A stretch of 64,000 nt of DNA, taken from Desmodesmus armatus (taxonomy: Eukaryota > Chlorophyta > Chlorophyceae > Sphaeropleales > Scenedesmaceae). The position numbers and the translations under genes are program-made. How positions within the stretch are numbered: the stretch's first letter is position 1; the number at the start of each line of letters is the position of its first letter. The notes beneath the pieces are model-generated. The model was not told the origin of the DNA, did no database searches, and worked only from the letters and a program-made list of their open reading frames with translations. This document shows, in pieces, positions 8,301 to 54,700 of this stretch. The stretch is from assembly GCA_007449985.2 (NCBI GenBank), contig VIIQ02000077.1, positions 124,001 to 188,000 of the forward strand. Reading direction: 5' to 3'.

Positions 8301-9003
8301 CTGAGCCAGCTGCCTACAAGGCGGTTCGTGCATGCCCTGGTTGAGGACCAGCAGCTGCTGGTAAAGGTGCGTTATACATAGTTATTGATACATCGTCGGT
8401 TCACTTCTGGTATTCATTTCAAGATGGGACCGTCTTGACAGTCGTCACATGTTGAGCAGCGAGCAGCGAAAGCACCCTCCCATAATCTGCAGCAGCAGCC
8501 ACAGTTGCTAGAACGGCTTGTTGTTCTGTGTCCCATGTGTACGTGACGTAAACCCGTATTGTCCGCTGGCGTGCATCCTGCTGTCATATCACTGTTACTC
8601 TTCCACTTGCGCAGGCTCGCCGCAGCGCGCTGTACGCGTCTCCTCAGGGCCACCTGTTTCAGCAGCTGCTGGACCTGCTGGCCTTCTACTGCGACTTCCC
8701 CATGGACGACCACACGGGGGAGCAGCTCAAGGAGGATGACGTCACAGCCAGGCACTACGACAAGGTGCGCGAGGGACACGGCAGGGGTTGTGTCAAAGGG
8801 CCATGCACGTGTGTTTTGTTGTCGGTGGGTGGGCGGTTTTGATGGCGGTGGGTGGGAGAGGGGGCGTGGGGGCCTAATAAGGGGCGCTATTGTGCAGTGT
8901 GCCCATCGTGTGCGGCAGTGGTGGTGGCGATAACAGTGGCCATAACTGAGCCGGTGGGTGGAAGTGGCAGCTTTGTTTGTGGAGGGAGTGGCATCGGGAG
9001 GCG

Positions 9004-9041
<38 letters not shown>

Positions 9042-12000
9042 TTGGCAGGATGGCAGGAGGGTTTTGTGGTGCTGCCAAGTGATGAATGGCTCTGCTATTG
9101 GTAAACAGCGACACAGAAGGGGCAGTATTCTGCCTCTCTGCTGACACCATGTCTGGACCCCTGATGGCTCACTTTGTTGTTCAGCCTGTTGTGTCGTGTT
9201 GAGGACTCTTGCGGTTGTGTTTACTTTTCAGTGTGACAATGGGTGCGCGCAAAATGTGTGTAAGCCGGTTGATGAATGACACTGCTTTTGGTAAACAGCA
9301 ACACTGAGGCGCATTGCCCCTGCTGACAACATGTCTGGACCACTGACGGCTGGAGTGTGAGTTGTGCGCACGAGTTTTAGCATGCAGCGTTTGGTGCTTG
9401 CTGGCAATGCAAAGTGCTACGAGGGGGGGGGGGTGCACCTTATGTTTTGCTGCTTGGTATGTGTTAGAGCTGGCACGTTGATGTTGTGGAGGGGTGCAGG
9501 AGGGGGCTGGGATGCAAGCGACTGCCGGTTGATGAATGGCACTGCTTTTGGTAAACAGCAATACACAGGGCTACCTGCCTATGCTGACACCATGTCTGGA
9601 CCACTGATGGCTGATTTGGCATTTGTTGTTCAAGCCTGCGTCAACTATGGGTGTGGCGCTTTTCTATATGCTTTTGTTGTCAGTAACCAAGGGTTTTGTT
9701 GTCAGTAACCAGGGGGGTGTGGTGGTGGTAGTGAAGCCGGTTGATGAATGGAACTGCTTTTGGTAAACAGCAACACTGAGGGCTACCTGCCTCTGCTGAC
9801 AACATGTCTGGACCACTGACGGCTGAAATGTGGGTTGTGCGCATGCGTCTTGGCATGCACCTTTTGTTTGCTTGCTGGCAATTGATTGTTCGTGTTGCGA
9901 GGCGGGGGGAGGGGGTGCACCTTATGTTTTGCTGCTTGGTATGTGCTAGAGCTGGCGCGTTGATGTTGTGGGGTGCAGGAGGGGGCTGGGATGCAAGAGA
10001 CTGCCGGTTGATGAATGGCACTGCTTTTGATAAACAGCAATACAGAGGGCTACCTGCCTATGCTGACACCATGTCTGGACCACTGATGGCTGATTTGGCA
10101 TTTGTTGTTCAAGCCTGCGTCAACTATGGGTGTGGCGCTTTTCTATATGCTTTTGTTGTCAGTAACCAAGGGTTTGTTGTCAGTAACCAGGGGGGTGTGG
10201 TGGTGGTAGTGAAGCCGGTTGATGAATGGAACTGCTTTTGGTAAACAGCAACACTGAGGGCTACCTGCCTCTGCTGACAACATGTCTGGACCACTGACGG
10301 CTGACTGCGCCCTGTTGATTTTTCAAGCAGATGTTGTCTCAATCAAGCATTTTTCCTTTGGTTTTTTTTGTTTTGTTTTAGTAACCAAAGGGTTGTTGTA
10401 CTGGTGGAAAGCCGGTTGATGAATGGCACTGCTTTTGGTAAACAGCAACACTGAGGCTCCTTGCCCCTGCTGACAACATGTCTGGACCACTGACGGCTGA
10501 CTTTGCATTTTTTTTCCATGCTGGGGGAGCTTATTTGGGGGAAGTTTGGGCCGTCAATGTATGCCTCATGTCCCTTCGCCCGTGTCCTGCTTGCTGTACC
10601 CTCTCTTGTGTGTTGCTCCCTTGTGTGTTGCTGAGCGCTGATACTTGTGAACTGTTGTTGACGCATCGCATGCTCGTGTGCGTCTGCTTGCTGCATGCTC
10701 GCCCTTGCAGGTGTGTCAGTTCCAGCGGCTGCTGTTCAAGTACTGGCCGCAGCTGCGCGACCTGTCGCTGGCCAACTGCGCGGCTGCCTGTGCGCCAGAC
10801 GGCCTCAGGCGGGCACTCAGCGGGCTGCAGGACTCTGAGCTGCAGCAGCTGGTGTGCAAGCAGCTGAGGCTTGTGGGCGAGGACGACCCATGGGCGCAGG
10901 TGAGGCGAGGATATGCTGGGGGGACTGGGAGCGGGGGACAACATGTCTCTTCTCTCCCCAGGTTCTGTCAATATATACAATGAAGGAGGTGCATGCGGGA
11001 AAGGATACTCGTTTTGGGGGGTGCACATCCAAGGCTGCACAGCAATGCAGTCACAGAGGCCCACGCAGGTATGTGTGCCCGCATCTGAAGGCGTCACCAC
11101 AAAACATGCCCCTACAAAGCCGCCTGCGCCTCATGCCTTGCATCCCACCGCCAACTCCACGCGCGTACATGCTTAGGGCAGGATGCATGTCCACACGACT
11201 TCAGTATAGCAAAGTAACACAAACATGCCTGGTGGCTGCTGCTCCTCTGCTGTTGATTGTATCTGGCTTCCGCATAGTCCCTCCCTCAATACAGTAGATG
11301 CACCTACTGACCCCGCCCCCTTACTGCTGCTGCTGCTCCGTGCAGGAGCGTGACTTCCTGTTGGATGTGGTGGTGGAGGCGTACCAGCGCCGTGCCTCTC
11401 AGCGTGCCGCCATCAACGCCATGCCCCTCTACCCCACAGAGGGAATGCTGTGGGACACCACACAGATACCCACAGGTGAGCTGCGGCTGCGGCCGCTACA
11501 GGCCACATGACTCTGCCGCTGCCGCTGTTTCCTATGCATGCATGCGTACTGCGGTGTGGGTGTACGGGTGGGTTTCAGCAGAGGAACCGATGCATCGGAT
11601 GCCACACTGGAACAGTCCTATCATACTCATTGATTTGATCGAATGATGACGTAATACATGTGTGTCATTGTGCTGCAGCAAACTACTCTGGCGAGGCTCC
11701 GCTGGCGCTGCCGAAGCTCAACCTGCAGTTCCTCAGTCCTGCGGACTACCTGCTGCGCAACTTCCACCTGTTCAGGCTGGAGGCAGCTTACGAGGTGCGG
11801 GAGGACATTCAGGTGGCCCTGCAGCGGCTGGCGCCTGGGCGGGACTTTGACAACAACCTGGTCTGGAGGTGAGGCGGTCTTTGGGGTTTGAGTTTCCGTT
11901 TGGGTTGAGCGTATGATGTTTGTTGGCCCTGCAGCGTGTGGCACCCGGGCAGGACTTTCCCCTGTCACTCACTTCGCCATGCAAGGACAGCCTGGGGGTT

Positions 12001-18000: not shown

Positions 18001-21000
18001 CAGTCACGCATACAATGTGTTAGTAGTCTACTGAGGTAGTCTACTGTGGCAGCATCAGACAGCACCAGTCCCAGTCAACAACAGCAGCTGTTGTGGTTCA
18101 CAAGAGCAAGGCTGAGTAGCGCAAGCTTCAAACACCAGAAGGAGCTCGGCACAGTATAGTGTTTTGTTTGTGAACCACTTGACTATGTTGTCCAGAGCAA
18201 CAGCATGCAGCAGGGCTGACTTGGTGTCACACTGCTGTTGGTGCTGTTGTGCAGAAAGGAATATGACCTAGTGGGCTGGCTGACAGAGAGGCTCTTGGGC
18301 TGGCATGGCATGCATGTGTGCCTGTATGTACACCCAAGACAGATACAGGCTTGTGAAGGCACACCATGCATGCTGCCTGTCAACCCAAAGGGGTGCTTTC
18401 AGGGCTCAGCCCTGCAAGTTGCTGTCGTACTGTAGTGCACGCACGTGGGTAGCTGCGCACAGTAGGGCGCATGGGGCCAAGTTGGTGGGGTATGGGATGT
18501 AAGTATCCAGCCTAGGTTGCTAGGGCAGGCTAGAATGCCTAGGGTGTTCATGCAGCAGCAGCGCTGGGGCCCAAGTGCTCTCAGCAAGGCGCAAGCAGCC
18601 GATTTGCTTTCACGGTCGGCCAACATGATGTAGAGGTGCAACACACCACGCTTGGATGCTGCATGCGGCCGTTTGAGCCATGCATTAGCAAGTTGCCCAC
18701 ACAGTGTTCAACACCGTTGTTCAACACCGGCTCCACACCGCGATGTCCGGCACCGGTCTTCAAGACCGGCTCGACACCGCGGACTTAGACACCGGTCTTC
18801 AAGACCGGCTCGCCACCGCGGTCTTAGAGACCGGCCCCAGATTCAACACCATACACCGGGTTGGGGACCGCGGTGGCAAGCCGGTGGTGAGGATCGTTCT
18901 CAACACCGGGCCCAGGTTTAGAGACGTCATTCTGGCAGAGGCCTCTGCTCTGCGTCATATGACTGTTGGAAGACCTCGCTTGGCCCAACTGACATGTGAT
19001 GCAGCTGAATGCAGAGTGTGGTCTGTGCTGGAAGTCCTGATTAGGGATTAGTCCTGGCCCATGACATTTTGTTCGCTTGAGTGAAGGGGCTGCTGGGTGG
19101 CCAAGACGTATCATGGTCGACACGTGTGCACGGTTCGGCAAGCACACCAGCGCGCAAGCAAAGAGCCACGGCTGGATGGGCGTGTCTCTGTTACTGTATG
19201 ACAACTGCTGCTGTGATGCCTGCAGGTGGGAGAAGTTCAGCGCTGCCGTGTCGTCGTCGGACAGACGTGGCAAGCCTGGCGTTGTCGCGGAGCTGTTCCC
19301 CTTCAGCGAGTACTTTGCTGATGCACCGCAGCCGCTGTTCAAGCCTGGGGCCAGCTACGCGGATGATATGGAGGTGAGCGGGCCTGCGGACCAACCTTTA
19401 AATGCTGAGATACCAGAGTATATACAAGTGGATGCCCCACTTTGTAAGTGATTTTGACGTTGGTGGCTGGTGCTGAAGATGGGACACCATCTTTCAACAG
19501 CATGATTCATCTGCTGCATGCGGCGTTGAGATGATGCAAGCAGCGCAAGCCACGCATGAGCTTGCTGAACTGGCTGCACTGTGCATTTTCTGGCGCTAGG
19601 GTTGTCCCCACTGCATCCCTCAGGCCATGCTGTGTCTTGCTATACGAGGGGGCAGGCTGGGCCATCTGCCCGGGAAGTTTGCACACTTGCACAGCAATAC
19701 ACTATTGCAAGCATGTGCAGCACAGTCTGCCATGCCTGGAGCTCATCAGCCTGACGCTTGATGCTTCACACACGCTTTTGCAGCTCACCAGCGGGCAACA
19801 GGCAGCACTGGTGTACCTGCACGCTCCCTTACTGGTACTGTTTACTTTTACATGGTGTAGGCTGAGCCTGAACACCCCTTACACAGCAGCAGGTTGTATA
19901 GATGTTGCACAACGACCATGTGGTACTGACCATGTGGGTGTGGGTGTGATGCTGGTCCACTTGCAGGTTGCCACTGGCTGCTTCCGCCACCTGCGTCATA
20001 TGTTCCAGGAGCTGGAGGAGACCCGGCCCTTCGAGCTACTCAAGGGACAGGTGCGGACACAGGCCTGCCAGCATCCATTTTGGTTGTCTGAAATTTGCGG
20101 TGCAGTCTGTAAGAAAAGGGGGATCTTGAAAACGAGCGGCTGGTGCGGGCAGCAAGCTTTGTCCCTTTTGTTATCCGTTCTGCACTGTCTTGAATGGGGG
20201 TGTGCCTCATATTGTTGAGGGCGTGCAGCCAGAGTGGAAGGATGTTGTGCAAGCATGCATGGGTAAGGTGCGCCCAAGCACCTGGAAAATGCGTGTGTCA
20301 TGCGCGCGATGTGTATCCCTGCCCCGGTGCCCCTCACACCTGACCTGAGAGACTGGGCTACATTAGTAGGCCCTCTGGGCACCCTCATGAGCCCCTGGCT
20401 CGCTGGCTAGTGCCGGTGTTGCTCTGTCTTCAATAACTGTACTGTACTGTGTTTGCAGGCTGACCGTGTCGCGTACCTGTGCAACAAGCAGGCCAAGGTT
20501 GTGGCCATGACCTGCACACACGCAGCACTGAAGCGCGGGGACTTCCTCAACTTGGGGCTCAAGTATGACAACATAGTCATGGAGGAGGCTGGCCAGGTGG
20601 GTGCTGGCCGGCAGTGGGGATACCGTTCATGTCATTGTGGGGATACCGTTCATGTCATTGTGAGGATACCGTTCATGTCATTGTGTGGATACCGTTCATG
20701 GCATTGCTGTGGAGGGGCCATGTGCTGTGGATGTACATGCGCATGCGGTTGCTGTCACTGCTTCAAAAGGGCCATGTGCTGCATAGTCGTCATGGAGGCA
20801 GGCCAGGTGGGTGCTGGTGGGCAGTGTGGATGCCCATGCGCATGCGGTTGATGTCACTGCTGTGGGAAGGGCCATGTGCTGCAGGGTCTTGGGATTGTGT
20901 GGCTCTCTGTCGCTGTGTAGAGTACATACTGTCTGCTGTGGTAGGCCCTTTATGTTCTGTGTTGTATTGATGCCGGCTGCGCTCTGCTTGTCGCACCAGC

Positions 21001-24000
21001 TGTTCTGATTCCCGCTGTGCTGTGCTGACCACTGGAAACCCGGCTGGCGCTGCAGGTGCTGGACCTTCGTCCCAATGTTGCTGCGGTGTGCTGAACTCCC
21101 CCGCCCCCCCCCCCCAACCACCACCCCATGCTGTGCTGTGTTGCGCTGACCTCTGCACACCCTGAAGGTCCTGGAGGTTGAGACCTTCATCCCCATGGTC
21201 CTGCAGCGGCTGGAGGACGGCATTGGCCGCCTCAAGCGCGTCATCCTCATCGGCTGCTGTCCTGTGCTGTGCTGACCCCCCCCCCCATGCTGTGCTGTGA
21301 TGTGATGACTGCAGGTGCTGGAGGTTGAGACCTTCATCCCCATGGTGCTGCAGCGGCAGGAGGACGGCATCGGCCGCCTCAAGCGTGTCATCCTCATCGG
21401 TGACCACCACCAGCTGCCGCCAGTCGTGCAGAACATGGCCTTCCAGAAGTACAGTCACCTGGATCAGTCGCTGTTTGCGCGCTTTGTGAGGCTGGGGACG
21501 CCGTATGTGGAGCTGAATGCGCAGGGCCGTGCCAGGCCCAGCATTGCGAAGCTCTACAACTGGCGCTATGGAGGCCTGCAGGACCTACCGGCTGTTACAC
21601 AGGTGGGGCTGGGTGTGCCGTATGTGTTGTGCAATGAATTTTTGCATTGAGTTGTGCAGTGAGAGAAGTTGACTTTGCAGGGGGCAAGGGGGGCTCCGTG
21701 CAACGTGTTGGGGCGAGGCGACTTGCTGCGCAATCCACCAGGGAGCTGAGGGGTCATGAGCGGCATGTTCATGCTGTGGTTTGAGAGAGTAGACATGTGT
21801 GGAGTTCATTTTAGTGTGCGCTGCAAGTTTTGATGAATCCTGGTGTGGTGGGTGCAATGCAAAGGCAGCATGCTGTTGTAGCATGATGCTGCAAACAGCT
21901 GAAGGCCGAGAGCAGCCAACTGTTTGGTACATCGTCACCGGCTTGTCTGCTGTTCCTGTTGCTCCCTGTATCTGTCACCAATCCTGCAGAGCCCTGTGTT
22001 CAAGGCAGCCAACCCTGGCCTGGCGCTCGACTACCAGTTCATTGATGTGCCGGACTTCAAGGGCCGCGGGGAGATCGAGCCAGCACCCTACTACTACCAA
22101 AACCTTGGAGAGGCGGAGTAAGCACCCCTTGGAGTGCCTTGCCTGCTCCTGCTGCTGTGCAGCGTGCATCATGATAGTATCTAGCACTTTTCAGGCAGGG
22201 TTGCGACCTACAGAGCAGCCATGCGGGCGTGTGCCGCTTGTGCGGCAACTGCAACCTGTCCCTGCTGCGTTCAACAGGCACATAAAAAATGGAAGGAAGC
22301 CCGCAGGCCTGTAGCGCCGTCATGACGCATTCCTCTGTTGTACTGCACTTGACCTACATCGCACGTATTGCACTGCACTGTACTGACGCGTACCGTACAT
22401 TGCTGAACTATCACATGCTGAACGATGCCGCGCTGTGCTGTACTGTTCCTGCAGGTACATTGTGGCGCTGTTCAGCTTCATGCGCCTCATGGGCTACCCT
22501 GCGGAGCGCATCACCATCCTCACCACCTACAACGGGCAGAAGGACCTGCTGCGGGACGTGATCGAGGCACGCTGCGCGAGACACCCACTCATTGGACGGC
22601 CACATAAGGTAGGTCATGATGACTGGGAAGAGGCTGCGATGTGGTGTCCGTGCAATGTAGTGCGCGCCGGAACGGCTGCAGAAGACAGCAGAGCTTGTGT
22701 CGATGTTTGGCGGTCAGTGTATTGACATGGAGCAAGAGCGTTATGACGTGTCTGGGTCTCAAGGATGCTTGGTGGTCGACTGCTGGCACAAGGGCACCCA
22801 AACGACCATGTAGGAAACTTACTGACTGGACAGCGCAGTAAATGGTGACCAACAAGCAACTTCAAGCTGGGGGCCTCTGCTGGAGGCCACATGTAGCAGT
22901 TGAAGTCAAAGTGATTGATCATACACACCCCAGGATTGAAGCGCACTCAACGACTGGGTTGCTCTGTGCTTGGCACAAACAGTTTCAAGCTCTGCAGTGG
23001 CATTTGACCAAGCGCTGACCTGCATGTGTTCCATCCAACTCTTGCCGCGCAGATCGCCACTGTGGACAAGTACCAGGGGCAGCAGAACGACTATGTGCTG
23101 CTGTCGCTGGTGCGCACACGAATTGTGGGGCACCTGAGGGATGTCAGGCGTCTGGTGGTGGCCCTGAGTCGAGCTCGACTGGGGCTCTACGTGTTTGGGC
23201 GGCGGAGCCTGTTTGCCAACTGCTTTGAGCTGCAGCCGGCGTTCAGCAGGCTGCTAGCCAGGCCGACACAGGTGAGGGTTGGGAATGTGGCTCTTGTTGG
23301 TGGTTGTTTCGCCTTATGAGCCTCGTTTGGCTCCTAACAGCAGTTATGACCCAGTTTAGTGGTAGTGGTAGTGGTTGGGTTGGTGTGCTGGATGGGCGTG
23401 GTGCAGTGGGCTTGCCACACGTGTGCAGCAGGCTGTGTTGCAATACCGTGACATGCTCTAATTTGTTTGCGAGGTGGGTTCTGTCTGGCAGGTGCGCACA
23501 GTTTTTGCGTGAATCGAAAGCGCTGTTTGCATTGTAGCAACACTTCCAGTTGTACTTTGCGGCTGCTGGTCCTGCCTGCTCAATTTCCCACCCGTCTCCC
23601 TGCATCATATTTGTAAAATGTCTGTTGTGTTCCTCGCCCCCCTTGCTGCTGCAGCTTGCGCTGGTCAAGGGTGAGAGCTACAGCACATGCAGCAGGCCTG
23701 TCGACCAGCAGGTGCCCTTCCAGCTGGTGGCCGGCGTCCCAGAGATGCTCAGCCTAGTCGAGGCCATCAGCAAAGAGCAGCTGGCAGCAGCAGCGGCAGC
23801 GACGGCGGCTGCCGACAAGGCAGCTGCAGGGGTGCCACCGCCACGGCCACCTCCTGGGGCCCCTCCCGCCTCAGCAGCAGCAGCAGGACCAGCAGCAGCT
23901 AGTGGGGCCGTGCCGCCTCCACGCCCACCGCCTGGGACGCCACCCAAGGCTGCAGCAGCGGCTACGAATGCAGAGGGGGCAGAGGCAGCAGCTGACGCTG

Positions 24001-38571: not shown

Positions 38572-41025
38572 TTGTCCTGTCAACGCCTCATCATCATATG
38601 CAATAGTCAGCTCTCGGCTCTTTCAGGCTCGAAGCTGAGCCAACGGCTGCATCTTACCATGAAGCTACTTTCGAGCACCCATGACGGCAGCTTTAATGAC
38701 CTCAAGCAGCTGAAGTCCGCATTCAGGACCTTGTCCAAGTGCGTGTGTGCGTCGAGCAAGGCAACACGCACCAAGTCTCCTTATCTAGGCTGTGATGACG
38801 AGGACGAAGACGGCTGGCTGCTGGCTGCAGCTCAGCCCTCTGGACTGAACACGCTACCAGAGGTGATGTCGTGTGCTCCAGCCTGTCTGACCTCCAGCGA
38901 CACGTGCAGGCATCGCCAGGGGTCGGTTGTAGTGGCAGCTGGTAGTCTCAGTCCACCACTCACCACACCCAGCTCCCTGGAGTGCAACAGCAGCAGTGTG
39001 GGCCAGGCAGTACACTGTGTCGGTGACTGTGCTGCTAGGGGCCTTCGGGCAGCTGAGGTGCTTCACTGTTCCTTTTTCAGCTAGCCTCCACACTTCCTTT
39101 CTTCAACTTGCCTTAACATATGCCATGTGGGTGGATACATGCAGGATGTCTTGCTGGCCATCCTGGCCTGCTTCCCAGACAAGCAGAAGGCCGTGCAGCT
39201 GCGTGTCGTGTGCAAGGCCTGGAGAGACTTGTTCAACCGCAGCGTGCACTGCATCACCATCCACAGCAACCTGCAGCTGCTGCCTCAGAACCCCTCCCGC
39301 TTCCCAACCTGCGCCACCTGTGCATCAGCCAGACCAACAGCACAGCAGCCAAGGCGGCAGTGCGCATGCTGGGGGTGCCTAACTGCAAGGAGTTGACCAT
39401 GCTGGAGATCAGCAACACTTGGATGCAGGAGCCGCCCTCAGACCTGTACCGCATGACCAGCCTCAAGACGCTGTCCCTCACCAGCTGCCGCATGAAGACC
39501 CTGGACTCTGCCCAGCTGCACATGCTGCCGCAGCTAGAGGTGCTGGACCTGTCCGCCAACAGCCTGTCAGGTATGGCGCGTTAGCAGCGCATCTGTCTGG
39601 GCGATCACCCACAGCAGCCTGATCGGCTGGCGTGTAGTTGCATCTTTTTTCACTGGATCTGGCGCCGATAGGCATGCATGCATGTCGCGACCGCAGCTGT
39701 CGCGTCTGGATCACATACAAACTGCACTTGCTGGTGTGAGCGGGCAACTTACATCATCAGGACATGGCTGTCAGGACTGGTTGTGCGGGCTGCAGTGTTC
39801 TTCTGCTCTCAGCGCACCCTACTGATGCTGACACCACACCCATGTCTGCCTCCTTGTCCTGCACTCGCTGCATCGCTTGCAGAGCTGCCTTCTGCCATCG
39901 GCAGCCTGGGCAGGAGCCTCAGGAAGCTGAACGTGTCAGGTGGGCAGCTGCAGTTGCATGCACCTGGAAGTTGCTTAAAAAACGGCTGCTCAGTGGCAGC
40001 AGCACAGCCAGTTCCTGTGGTGATTCTCACTGGTGAACTCAGTCGTTTCATGACCTTGGCTGACGCACAGCTTCTTTGCAGCAATGTGTTGGCATCAGCT
40101 CACTCAGCAGGTGGTAAGAGCATGTGGAGCACACGAGGCGAACAGAGTCTGCCGCCGCTCAAGTCAAGGCAACTCACTTTTCCCCATGCCGCTCACATCT
40201 GCTCTTATTCTGTTTGCCCTGCCTTCCTTCCTTTGCAGACAATGCGCTGAGCTACCTCCCTGAGGGCCTTGGTGGGCTCACCAACCTCAAGTCCCTGCGT
40301 GCCGCCAACAACACCCTGCTGGAGCTGCCAGACAGCATCGTGGACCTGCAGTGCCTCACAACCCTGGACCTCAGCCTCAACAGGCTCAAGGCAGTGCCTG
40401 ACAGGCTGTGTGAGCTGACAGGGCTGCAGCAGCTGGGGCTGTTTGCCGCCTTCAGCCACAGCTTGAGGACAGAGGGATCCAGCACCGTGCGCGTGCTGGC
40501 TGACATGACGTGAGTGTTTGTGAGGACAGCAGCAGGGTGGGTTTCGTTTGCCGTTATGTACAAGCATGTTGTCCAAGCAGGGAGTTGAGCAGGGGTGGGT
40601 TTTGGCGTGAGTCTGCCAGGCGTCGATGCCTTTGGGGTTGTCCATGACAGATGCATGCGCAGATGAGCAGCTAGTGTGATGTGCAGGTTCTTTGCAGAGC
40701 GGCACTGGATGTGCATGAGCCTGCTGCACAAACATGGTGATGAAGGAGCATGCACTTGTCACAGTTCAGGTGTAAACAGGAGACCTGCACGCCAACCTGC
40801 CACACCACCATGCTGTGTGCTGACGCTGCTGCCCCCCATGCTTGCTGTGTGTTGTCCTGCAGCATGAGGTCTCCTGAGCTGCGGCTGCATGCAGAGGAGG
40901 TTGTGCTGAGCCTGGTGCGCATGCGCAAGAAGCAGCTGGCGATGGCAGCAGCAGTGGAGGCAGCACGCAATGCCAGCCCTACAGGAGACGATGATGACGA
41001 GCCTACACCAGACCAGCTGCCCTGA
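38572..41025 (+). CDS. F-box / leucine-rich-repeat protein, with a frame break in exon 2
   Basis: Exons 38572-38862, 39145-39570, 39883-39939, 40239-40509, about 40698-40736 and 40863-41025. The start may instead be the ATG at 38659. Across the first junction TLPE|DVLLAILACFP then VCKAWRDLF form an F-box (about residues 95-130). LRRs follow: LPNLRHLCIS, LKTLSLTSCRM, LEVLDLSANSLSELPSAIG, LTNLKSLRAANNTLLELPDSI, LTTLDLSLNRLKAVPDRL. The F-box and the LRRs lie in different frames with no splice site between (about 39285-39305). This means a one-base loss or equivalent in the genome or assembly. The small fifth exon is the least certain; it was chosen because it alone keeps the phase. F-box/LRR proteins serve as substrate receptors of SCF ubiquitin ligases; the substrate is unknown. 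The acidic tail GDDDDEPTPD ends the protein. Confidence 0.72.
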
Positions 41026-53177: not shown

Positions 53178-54700
53178 GCAACTCTGCAGCTCACAAACAC
53201 CACTGCTCCCAGAAAGTGCACAGAGGAAACACATGCTGCTCCAAAAAAGGCCAGGCATGCAGAAACGGACACCGGAGCCCCACAGCCAGTCAGCGGACAG
53301 ATAAGGCACCAAAAACGACAGCAGCAGCACCATCGCGAAAGGTTGGGAAGAGGGAGAAAATTAGGCCAGGGCCCAGCGCGAAATGTTAGGAGGAAGTGTG
53401 AAATTTCAAAAATTTCCTGACCCATTCGCGAATAGTTCGGACGCGAATAGGTTCTGGTGGTTACGGTAATCGATTCGCATGACCAGTCACTTAAGTAGGC
53501 TGTTGTTTGACGCAAGAATTGTGATGGTGTGGTATGCAGAGGATGTATGTGCAATAGACCACTTCCTGCTACAGCACAACTCCATCTGGCTGTTTTTGGC
53601 TTAGGCAACAGCCGTCGGCACACTCCTGACCTGACCGCGTCTTGCACTTGAGAATGCTTGCTTTTGCAGTTGCACACGAGGTCAAATAAACACAAAATGA
53701 TTGACTTAAACATGAAGAACCACCTCCAACTTTCAGTACTGAAAAAGCTGCCCAGCCTGAGAAGATGTTGTAAATCCTACACCTACGACCTACGGAACAT
53801 ACCCCCCTACGGGGTAGGACCTACGGCCTACGGCTGTAGGTGCCGCCAGAACCTACGGGTGCTAACATCCTTACTGATTGATGACCCCCCCCCCCTTCCC
53901 CAACCCGCCGCTGTTGCACTTACACAACTCCAGGACCCCCCCCCCACCACCACACCAGCTGTCCCTGCTGATAGTGCTGTACCTCCCCCCCCCTGCATTC
54001 CCCACAACACTGCACCCGTGTTGCTGACGCTGACTGCTGCTGCTGTCACTGCGGTTGCGCCGTAACAGGGCATGGTCAAGCAATCGCATTCGGTGGACCA
54101 GGCGCAACGCTGCCCTACTCACACAACCCCAAGGCACCCCCCACCGCCACAGCTGCCACCCCTGCTTGTTGCTGTACCCCCCCCTCGCCGCAAAACTGCA
54201 CCTCTGTTGCTGACGCTGACTGCTGCTGTCACTGACGGTTGCACCGTAACCGGGCGTGGCCAAGCAATCGCATTCGGTGAACCAGGCGCAACGCTGCCCT
54301 ACTCACACCGCCCCAAGGACCCCACCACACCAGCTGTCCCTGCTGATACTGATTGCTGTACCCCCCCCCCCCCCTCGACTCGCATCCCCCCTCAAAGATG
54401 CACCTCTGTTGCTGACGCTGACTGCTGCTGCTGTCACTGCGGTTGCACCGTAACCGGGCGTGGCCAAGCAATCGCATTCGGTGGACCAGGCGCAACGCTG
54501 CCCTACACACACACAACCCCAATAACCCCCCACACCACCAGCTACCCCTCTCGCTACTGCTTGCTGTACCCCACCCCCCCTGCAAACTGCACCCCTGTTG
54601 CTGACGGTGGCTGCTTTGCTGACTGTTGCTGTCGCTGACGGTTGCGCCGTAACCGGCGTGGTTGCATCGCATTCGGTGGACCAGGCGCAACGCTGCTTTG

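Follow-up and report, generated by a model that had tools for sequence, protein, structure and literature searches.

The 64,000-nt window of Desmodesmus armatus DNA analysed here carries, within a single intron of the gene encoding Aquarius (AQR), a seven-copy array of box C/D snoRNA-like units. We read these units as isoforms of one intron-processed box C/D snoRNA, amplified by local duplication and acting as a guide for 18S rRNA, a reading to which we give a probability of roughly 0.87.

Identification of the host gene as AQR is based on Pfam matches in nine of the 30 open reading frames scanned, all on the plus strand between 6.0 and 23.4 kb: Aquarius_N_1st (four), Aquarius_N_2nd (one), Aquarius_N_3rd (one), AAA_11 (two, one of them below its cut-off) and AAA_12 (one). 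Among solved structures, a 199-residue piece of the host protein comes closest to Chlamydomonas reinhardtii Aquarius (8xi2_Q, E 3e-68), 8XI2 being the Chlamydomonas C* spliceosome (PMC11833078), and the same piece matches 4pj3 with an E-value of 1.9e-38. The intron enclosing all seven units (8765-10710, plus strand, GT...AG) measures 1946 nt, compared with 248 and 446 nt for the neighbouring AQR introns. Its splice sites were picked by us and are supported by the junction alignment, in which the joined protein aligns without a break to 8xi2_Q across the junction between K and VCQFQRL. The length of this intron and the three Aquarius-specific Pfam domains agree with the initial annotation of the stretch, which had placed seven units inside one AQR intron of about 1.95 kb. 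The same intron contains a run of 36 G at 9005-9040, a little upstream of unit 1. The coordinates of the exons, the intron and the units are as follows.

8615..8764, plus strand: AQR exon 5' of the array intron; PF16399 Aquarius_N_1st, E 7.9e-14 (ORF 8552-8839)
8765..10710, plus strand: array intron of AQR; ends GTGCGC...TTGCAG; junction alignment to 8xi2_Q
9074..9170, plus strand: unit 1; box C 9080-9085, guide 9149-9159, box D 9161-9164; stem GCCA/TGGC; long D'-C' hairpin
9264..9352, plus strand: unit 2; box C 9270-9275, guide 9331-9341, box D 9343-9346
9524..9613, plus strand: unit 3; box C 9530-9535, guide 9592-9602, box D 9604-9607
9736..9825, plus strand: unit 4; box C 9742-9747, guide 9804-9814, box D 9816-9819
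10003..10092, plus strand: unit 5; box C 10009-10014, guide 10071-10081, box D 10083-10086
10214..10303, plus strand: unit 6; box C 10220-10225, guide 10282-10292, box D 10294-10297
10411..10499, plus strand: unit 7; box C 10417-10422, guide 10478-10488, box D 10490-10493
10711..10899, plus strand: AQR exon 3' of the array intron; PF16399 Aquarius_N_1st, E 9.3e-9 (ORF 10651-10980)

The units are 89-97 nt long and together span 9074-10499. The box C/D motifs, guide position and short terminal stem described initially were recovered in every one of them: a [GT]TGATGA box C and a CTGA box D are present in 7/7 units, and the 11-nt guide ATGTCTGGACC, located one base ahead of CTGA, is identical in all seven. 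A purine precedes UGAUGA (RUGAUGA) in unit 1 only (GTGATGA), with the other six units reading TTGATGA. The C' box is TGCTGA throughout (7/7), and the D' box reads CTGA in units 2, 4, 6 and 7, CAGA in units 1 and 5 and CACA in unit 3. Folded alone, the piece between D' and C' forms a hairpin in each of the seven units, at energies of -3.6 to -17.0 kcal/mol that were computed without a control set.

The terminal stem comprises four base pairs in units 1, 3 and 5 and five in units 2, 4, 6 and 7, and an alternative register yields an equal number of pairs in units 2, 3 and 5. The compensatory change that had been claimed for this stem stands in part: unit 1 does keep its pairing, but the stem of units 3 and 5 (GCCG/TGGC) contains a G.U pair, and the covariation, with G-C, G-U and A-U in the variable column, does not rise above that of shuffles, 257 of 500 of which reach it. 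Single-unit folding energies were not better than those of shuffles either (z -0.69 to +2.18); box C/D RNAs usually fold no better than shuffles.

The target of the D guide was assessed on two stand-in eukaryotic SSU contigs identified via RF01960, L028 (partial) and L029 (1292 nt). The rDNA of D. armatus was not found in the assembly with three patterns, and we therefore infer, through these stand-ins, the pairing with the alga's own 18S rRNA. In all seven units the D guide pairs with the stand-in SSU rRNA over 11 Watson-Crick base pairs at positions D+2 to D+12, in line with the SSU rRNA target first proposed for the array. The SSU stretch GGTCCAGACAT is present in both L028 and L029, which were retrieved by a pattern containing GGTCCAGACA, so their possession of the target says nothing about its invariance. 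Since the Rfam consensus of SNORD66 reads GUGUCUGGGCC at the guide, the word "invariant" used earlier for the target stretch is probably too strong.

An 11-bp Watson-Crick match to the L029 SSU stands beside the CTGA of 7/7 array units. None of the remaining 723 CTGA on the two strands of the window has one, nor does any of the 1933 CTGA in 19 10-kb pieces taken from elsewhere in the genome. Under a relaxed test (at least 10 bp, at most one G.U pair), the window yields four further plus-strand and six minus-strand matches (the latter at five places), some of them 11-12 bp long, and a single match of such quality is for this reason unimpressive. Separately, CCAGCTGTCCCT occurs twice in the window, at 53955-53966 and 54330-54341, 375 nt apart and each time one base ahead of CTGA; both copies pair with the SSU over 12 bp (one G.U) and are set in C-rich repeats, and an upstream TGATGA lies near the first only.

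By the D+5 rule, the array points to C1212 of L029, the first C of GGUCC. Counting from C1212, the L029 bases at +16, +45, +47, +54 and +56 are U, U, U, U and G; in base and in spacing these six residues correspond to Arabidopsis C1219, U1235, U1264, U1266, U1273 and G1275. By the human sequence, we take mammalian C1272 to be this same nucleotide, and from the comparison on the stand-in SSU we infer that the predicted site is the equivalent of Arabidopsis C1219 and mammalian C1272. The snR40/U32 site, near which the initial annotation had located the match, is the G at +56 (Arabidopsis G1275, human G1328, yeast G1271); the predicted nucleotide of the array lies 56 nt upstream of that G, and the snR40/U32 target was accordingly set aside in favor of the SNORD66/SnoR166 site. 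Arabidopsis 18S C1219 appears in a RiboMeth-seq table with SnoR166 as its guide (PMC8053127), and SnoR166 thus shares its predicted 18S nucleotide with the array, as judged by the spacing to five neighboring Nm sites. In two further sources, Cm1219 in helix 33 is predicted from SNORD72, named for the very nucleotide predicted for the array (PMC8351944), and SNORD66 is listed with 18S C1272 in a mouse-cell study (PMC8881200).

As a positive control, the U14 gene of this genome located in the cluster on contig C165 (see below) was submitted to the same procedure. It gave a 14-bp match for which the rule points at position 414 of the stand-in SSU, a position that we equated with Arabidopsis C418, the U14 site. 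Comparator guide patterns for the G1275 site returned two genome matches, with no box C near either, and the comparator pattern for the U1235 site returned one (L040), with a TGATGA 99 nt upstream. Neither comparator led to a clear snoRNA, an indication that guide searches by strict pattern are liable to misses and failures.

An Rfam scan of the window identified no family at its cut-off. SNORD66 (RF00572) matches units 3-6 at 15.2-16.0 bits (E 4.4-7.8), which by score is chance level, the best of these values lying below the gathering cut-off of 32 bits, and snoU6-53 matches unit 1 just as well (16.1 bits, E 4). SNORD66 nonetheless shares its guide position with the array, the Rfam consensus UGUCUGGGCCACUGA aligning with UGUCUGGACCACUGA of the array, and this alignment at the guide is suggestive. 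The two differ in that SNORD66 scores at most 16.0 bits on the units, gives 0 matches at E <= 1 genome-wide and resides in another host gene, EIF4G1.

On these observations we propose that the units would be transcribed within the AQR pre-mRNA and then excised from its intron. Because all are distant from the 3' splice site and a single intron houses the seven, their release may proceed as in plant and algal polycistronic clusters, with cuts between units and trimming to snoRNP-protected ends, instead of one unit per debranched lariat. Core C/D proteins would bind each unit at boxes C/D and C'/D', and the D guide would direct 2'-O-methylation, by the D+5 rule, at the first C of GGUCC (= Cm1219/Cm1272). 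Copy number grew through local duplication; in one recent event units 5-6 were copied from the unit 3-4 block or the reverse, as their 99% identity shows, and the raised copy number probably raises dosage. The array may in this way supply a candidate guide, in a green alga, for the Cm1219/Cm1272-type 18S mark that is listed for Arabidopsis and mammals, and it illustrates the growth of a snoRNA family within a single intron.

Comparison of the units with one another and with the genome bears on how the array arose. Unit 6 is identical to unit 4 across 90 nt, and the block formed by units 3-4 agrees with units 5-6, spacer included, at 299 of 301 aligned bases (99%), which indicates that one block was copied recently; between units 2-3 and units 4-5, 318 of 347 bases agree. 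Unit 1 is 78-79% identical to the other units, and the spacer that follows it shows 44-57% identity to the other five, inside the 40-62% range of unrelated-looking spacer pairs, a comparison made without a random control. A model (R1) recovers the seven units, on which it was itself trained, at 93-122 bits, and the next match in the window reaches 14.6 bits (E 0.12). Across the 115.8-Mb assembly (831 contigs), a DNA search with one unit returned six of the seven units and no further copy; it missed unit 1 and could likewise overlook other copies with an identity of about 78%. The TGTCTGGACCNCTGA pattern, which joins guide and box D, occurs eight times genome-wide, seven times in the array and once on contig C633, where no TGATGA lies within 200 nt upstream.

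The 99% identity of units 3-4 and 5-6, extending through the spacers, and the existence of other local duplications in the AQR gene are what a tandem repeat or mobile element merely resembling a snoRNA array would also produce. We find this account barely credible: the units are conserved where the old spacers are not, the 11-bp rRNA match sits exactly at box D, and no copy was found outside the intron by a search that could miss sequences of about 78% identity. The initial annotation had itself named a genome-wide occurrence of the repeat, as an ordinary transposon, as grounds for giving up its reading; neither the search nor the TGTCTGGACCNCTGA pattern uncovered a copy of the units outside the AQR intron, which speaks against a transposon and lends no support to a genome-wide repeat. 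A different question is which end of the unit does the guiding. The element TTGGTAAACAGC lies upstream of D' in six of the seven units, with one base different in unit 5, and occupies 9098-9109 in unit 1 and the corresponding place in every unit; being nearly as conserved as the D guide, it may guide a second site. The units could even be C/D snoRNAs that act mainly through this D'-side element on LSU rRNA or another RNA, with the 18S match secondary. We hold this to be unlikely, since the D' box departs from CTGA in units 1, 3 and 5 and the D guide fits a site with known methylation in Arabidopsis. Compared with the SSU side only (L029 1-1292 and the partial L028), TTGGTAAACAGC gave no 10-bp match without mismatch, the best being 9/10, and a search of viral contigs with it returned none. 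The complement of TTGGTAAACAGC may resemble a stretch of organelle LSU rRNA. The reading of the units as amplified isoforms of one 18S-guiding snoRNA is retained.

In C. reinhardtii, snoRNA genes form mainly polycistronic clusters giving several isoforms (PMC7671301) and many snoRNA genes have been identified within introns (PMC8226300), both citing Chen et al. 2008, a paper with intronic gene clusters in its title. These clusters resemble the AQR array in producing several isoforms, and many C. reinhardtii snoRNA genes, like the units, lie within introns of protein-coding genes. The D. armatus genome contains a larger snoRNA-like cluster, found through its U14 only, on the minus strand of contig C165 (L043, 117500-127400), where U14 (RF00016, 61 bits, slightly below the cut-off of 64) is accompanied by 16 C/D-like units on one strand. 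Ten of these are tandem units at a spacing of about 112 nt and the six others share a hairpin motif. The place of box C is taken by TGAAGA in nine tandem units and by TGAATA in one, and by TGATGA in four of the six others; with a canonical box C in only 4/16 units, many of them could have degenerated or could be something other than C/D RNAs. Matches below cut-off were seen to snoZ157, snoZ152, snoZ103 and snoR114, and a Pfam scan of ten open reading frames around the cluster gave none. This cluster is like the AQR array in carrying many C/D-like units on one strand, and differs from it in sequence and in including U14. Applied to 19 ten-kb stretches from other contigs, an array detector requiring TGATGA gave no further array.

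The AQR array fits a local habit of snoRNA clustering, and the best reading is that it represents an ordinary kind of snoRNA cluster with a nice host, clustered isoforms being already documented for Chlamydomonas. A second U14 of this genome lies at 40679-40802 on the minus strand of contig C604 (L042), between exons of HSP90 and on the same strand, the HSP90 assignment being based on PF00183 in 3/3 open reading frames. HSP90 is a snoRNP assembly chaperone.

The identity of the host had led the initial annotation to suggest a feedback of snoRNP load or AQR level on AQR splicing. In such a circuit, AQR-aided snoRNP assembly on the seven units would compete with or promote splicing of the array intron, and AQR mRNA would come under the control of snoRNP load or of the level of AQR. 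Mammalian AQR/IBP160 does help intronic C/D snoRNPs to assemble (PMC8162545, PMC10234308), and a circuit of this type, which the annotation did not know to be described, has a precedent in SNORD86, a snoRNA in a NOP56 intron that controls NOP56 splicing (PMC10324135). Like the array, SNORD86 lies inside a gene for a protein serving C/D snoRNPs, but its control of host splicing is known by experiment, whereas such control by the AQR array is hypothetical. Further snoRNP-factor hosts are Arabidopsis FIB1/FIB2, which host U60 (PMC8053127), and, in the present genome, HSP90 with its U14. Against the circuit, all box D elements lie at least 217 nt from the intron end, at distances ranging from 217 nt for unit 7, the nearest, to 1546 nt for the farthest. 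For the few mammalian C/D snoRNAs concerned, PMC10234308 describes a need for 40-50 nt to the branch point, explained by the binding of AQR 33-40 nt upstream of it, and assuming the usual short branch-point distance the array does not have this AQR-dependent spacing. No sense-strand target of the D guide was found in the window at up to one mismatch, the D'-side element has one AQR plus-strand match, at 23208, with two mismatches, and mismatch scans (at most one or two, G.U ignored) turned up nothing on the sense strand of AQR that would serve well as a guide target. The larger cluster on C165 indicates, in addition, that arrays need no such purpose. With the box D elements this far from the intron end, no good target in AQR by these scans and a cluster elsewhere in the genome, the proposed circuit is unsupported, and we consider it very unlikely.

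More broadly, genes for snoRNP factors (AQR, and HSP90 with U14) might have been selected as snoRNA hosts in this algal lineage, with the AQR array acting as a sensor: rising snoRNP assembly on the intron would make AQR splicing slower or faster and would tie AQR supply to snoRNP demand. We judge this to be highly improbable. Hosts of this kind do turn up repeatedly, but a handful of picked examples, with no background rate to set them against, establishes no rule, and what can be read in the DNA does not lift the choice of AQR as host above coincidence. In literature on IBP160/Aquarius with snoRNAs and on Chlamydomonas and Volvox snoRNAs, AQR is not named as a host among the matches listed; the accessible portion of PMC8393311 contains nothing on the 18S site of the array, and that of PMC7277114 nothing on AQR.

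Two further duplicated segments were observed in the AQR gene. A helicase exon is preceded, just ahead of the real exon, by a cut-down copy of itself (21162-21253 and 21309-21400, 92 nt, 93% identical), and the segment at 20572-20624, which takes in the final part of the exon before the helicase exon, recurs at 20782-20834 with 83% identity.
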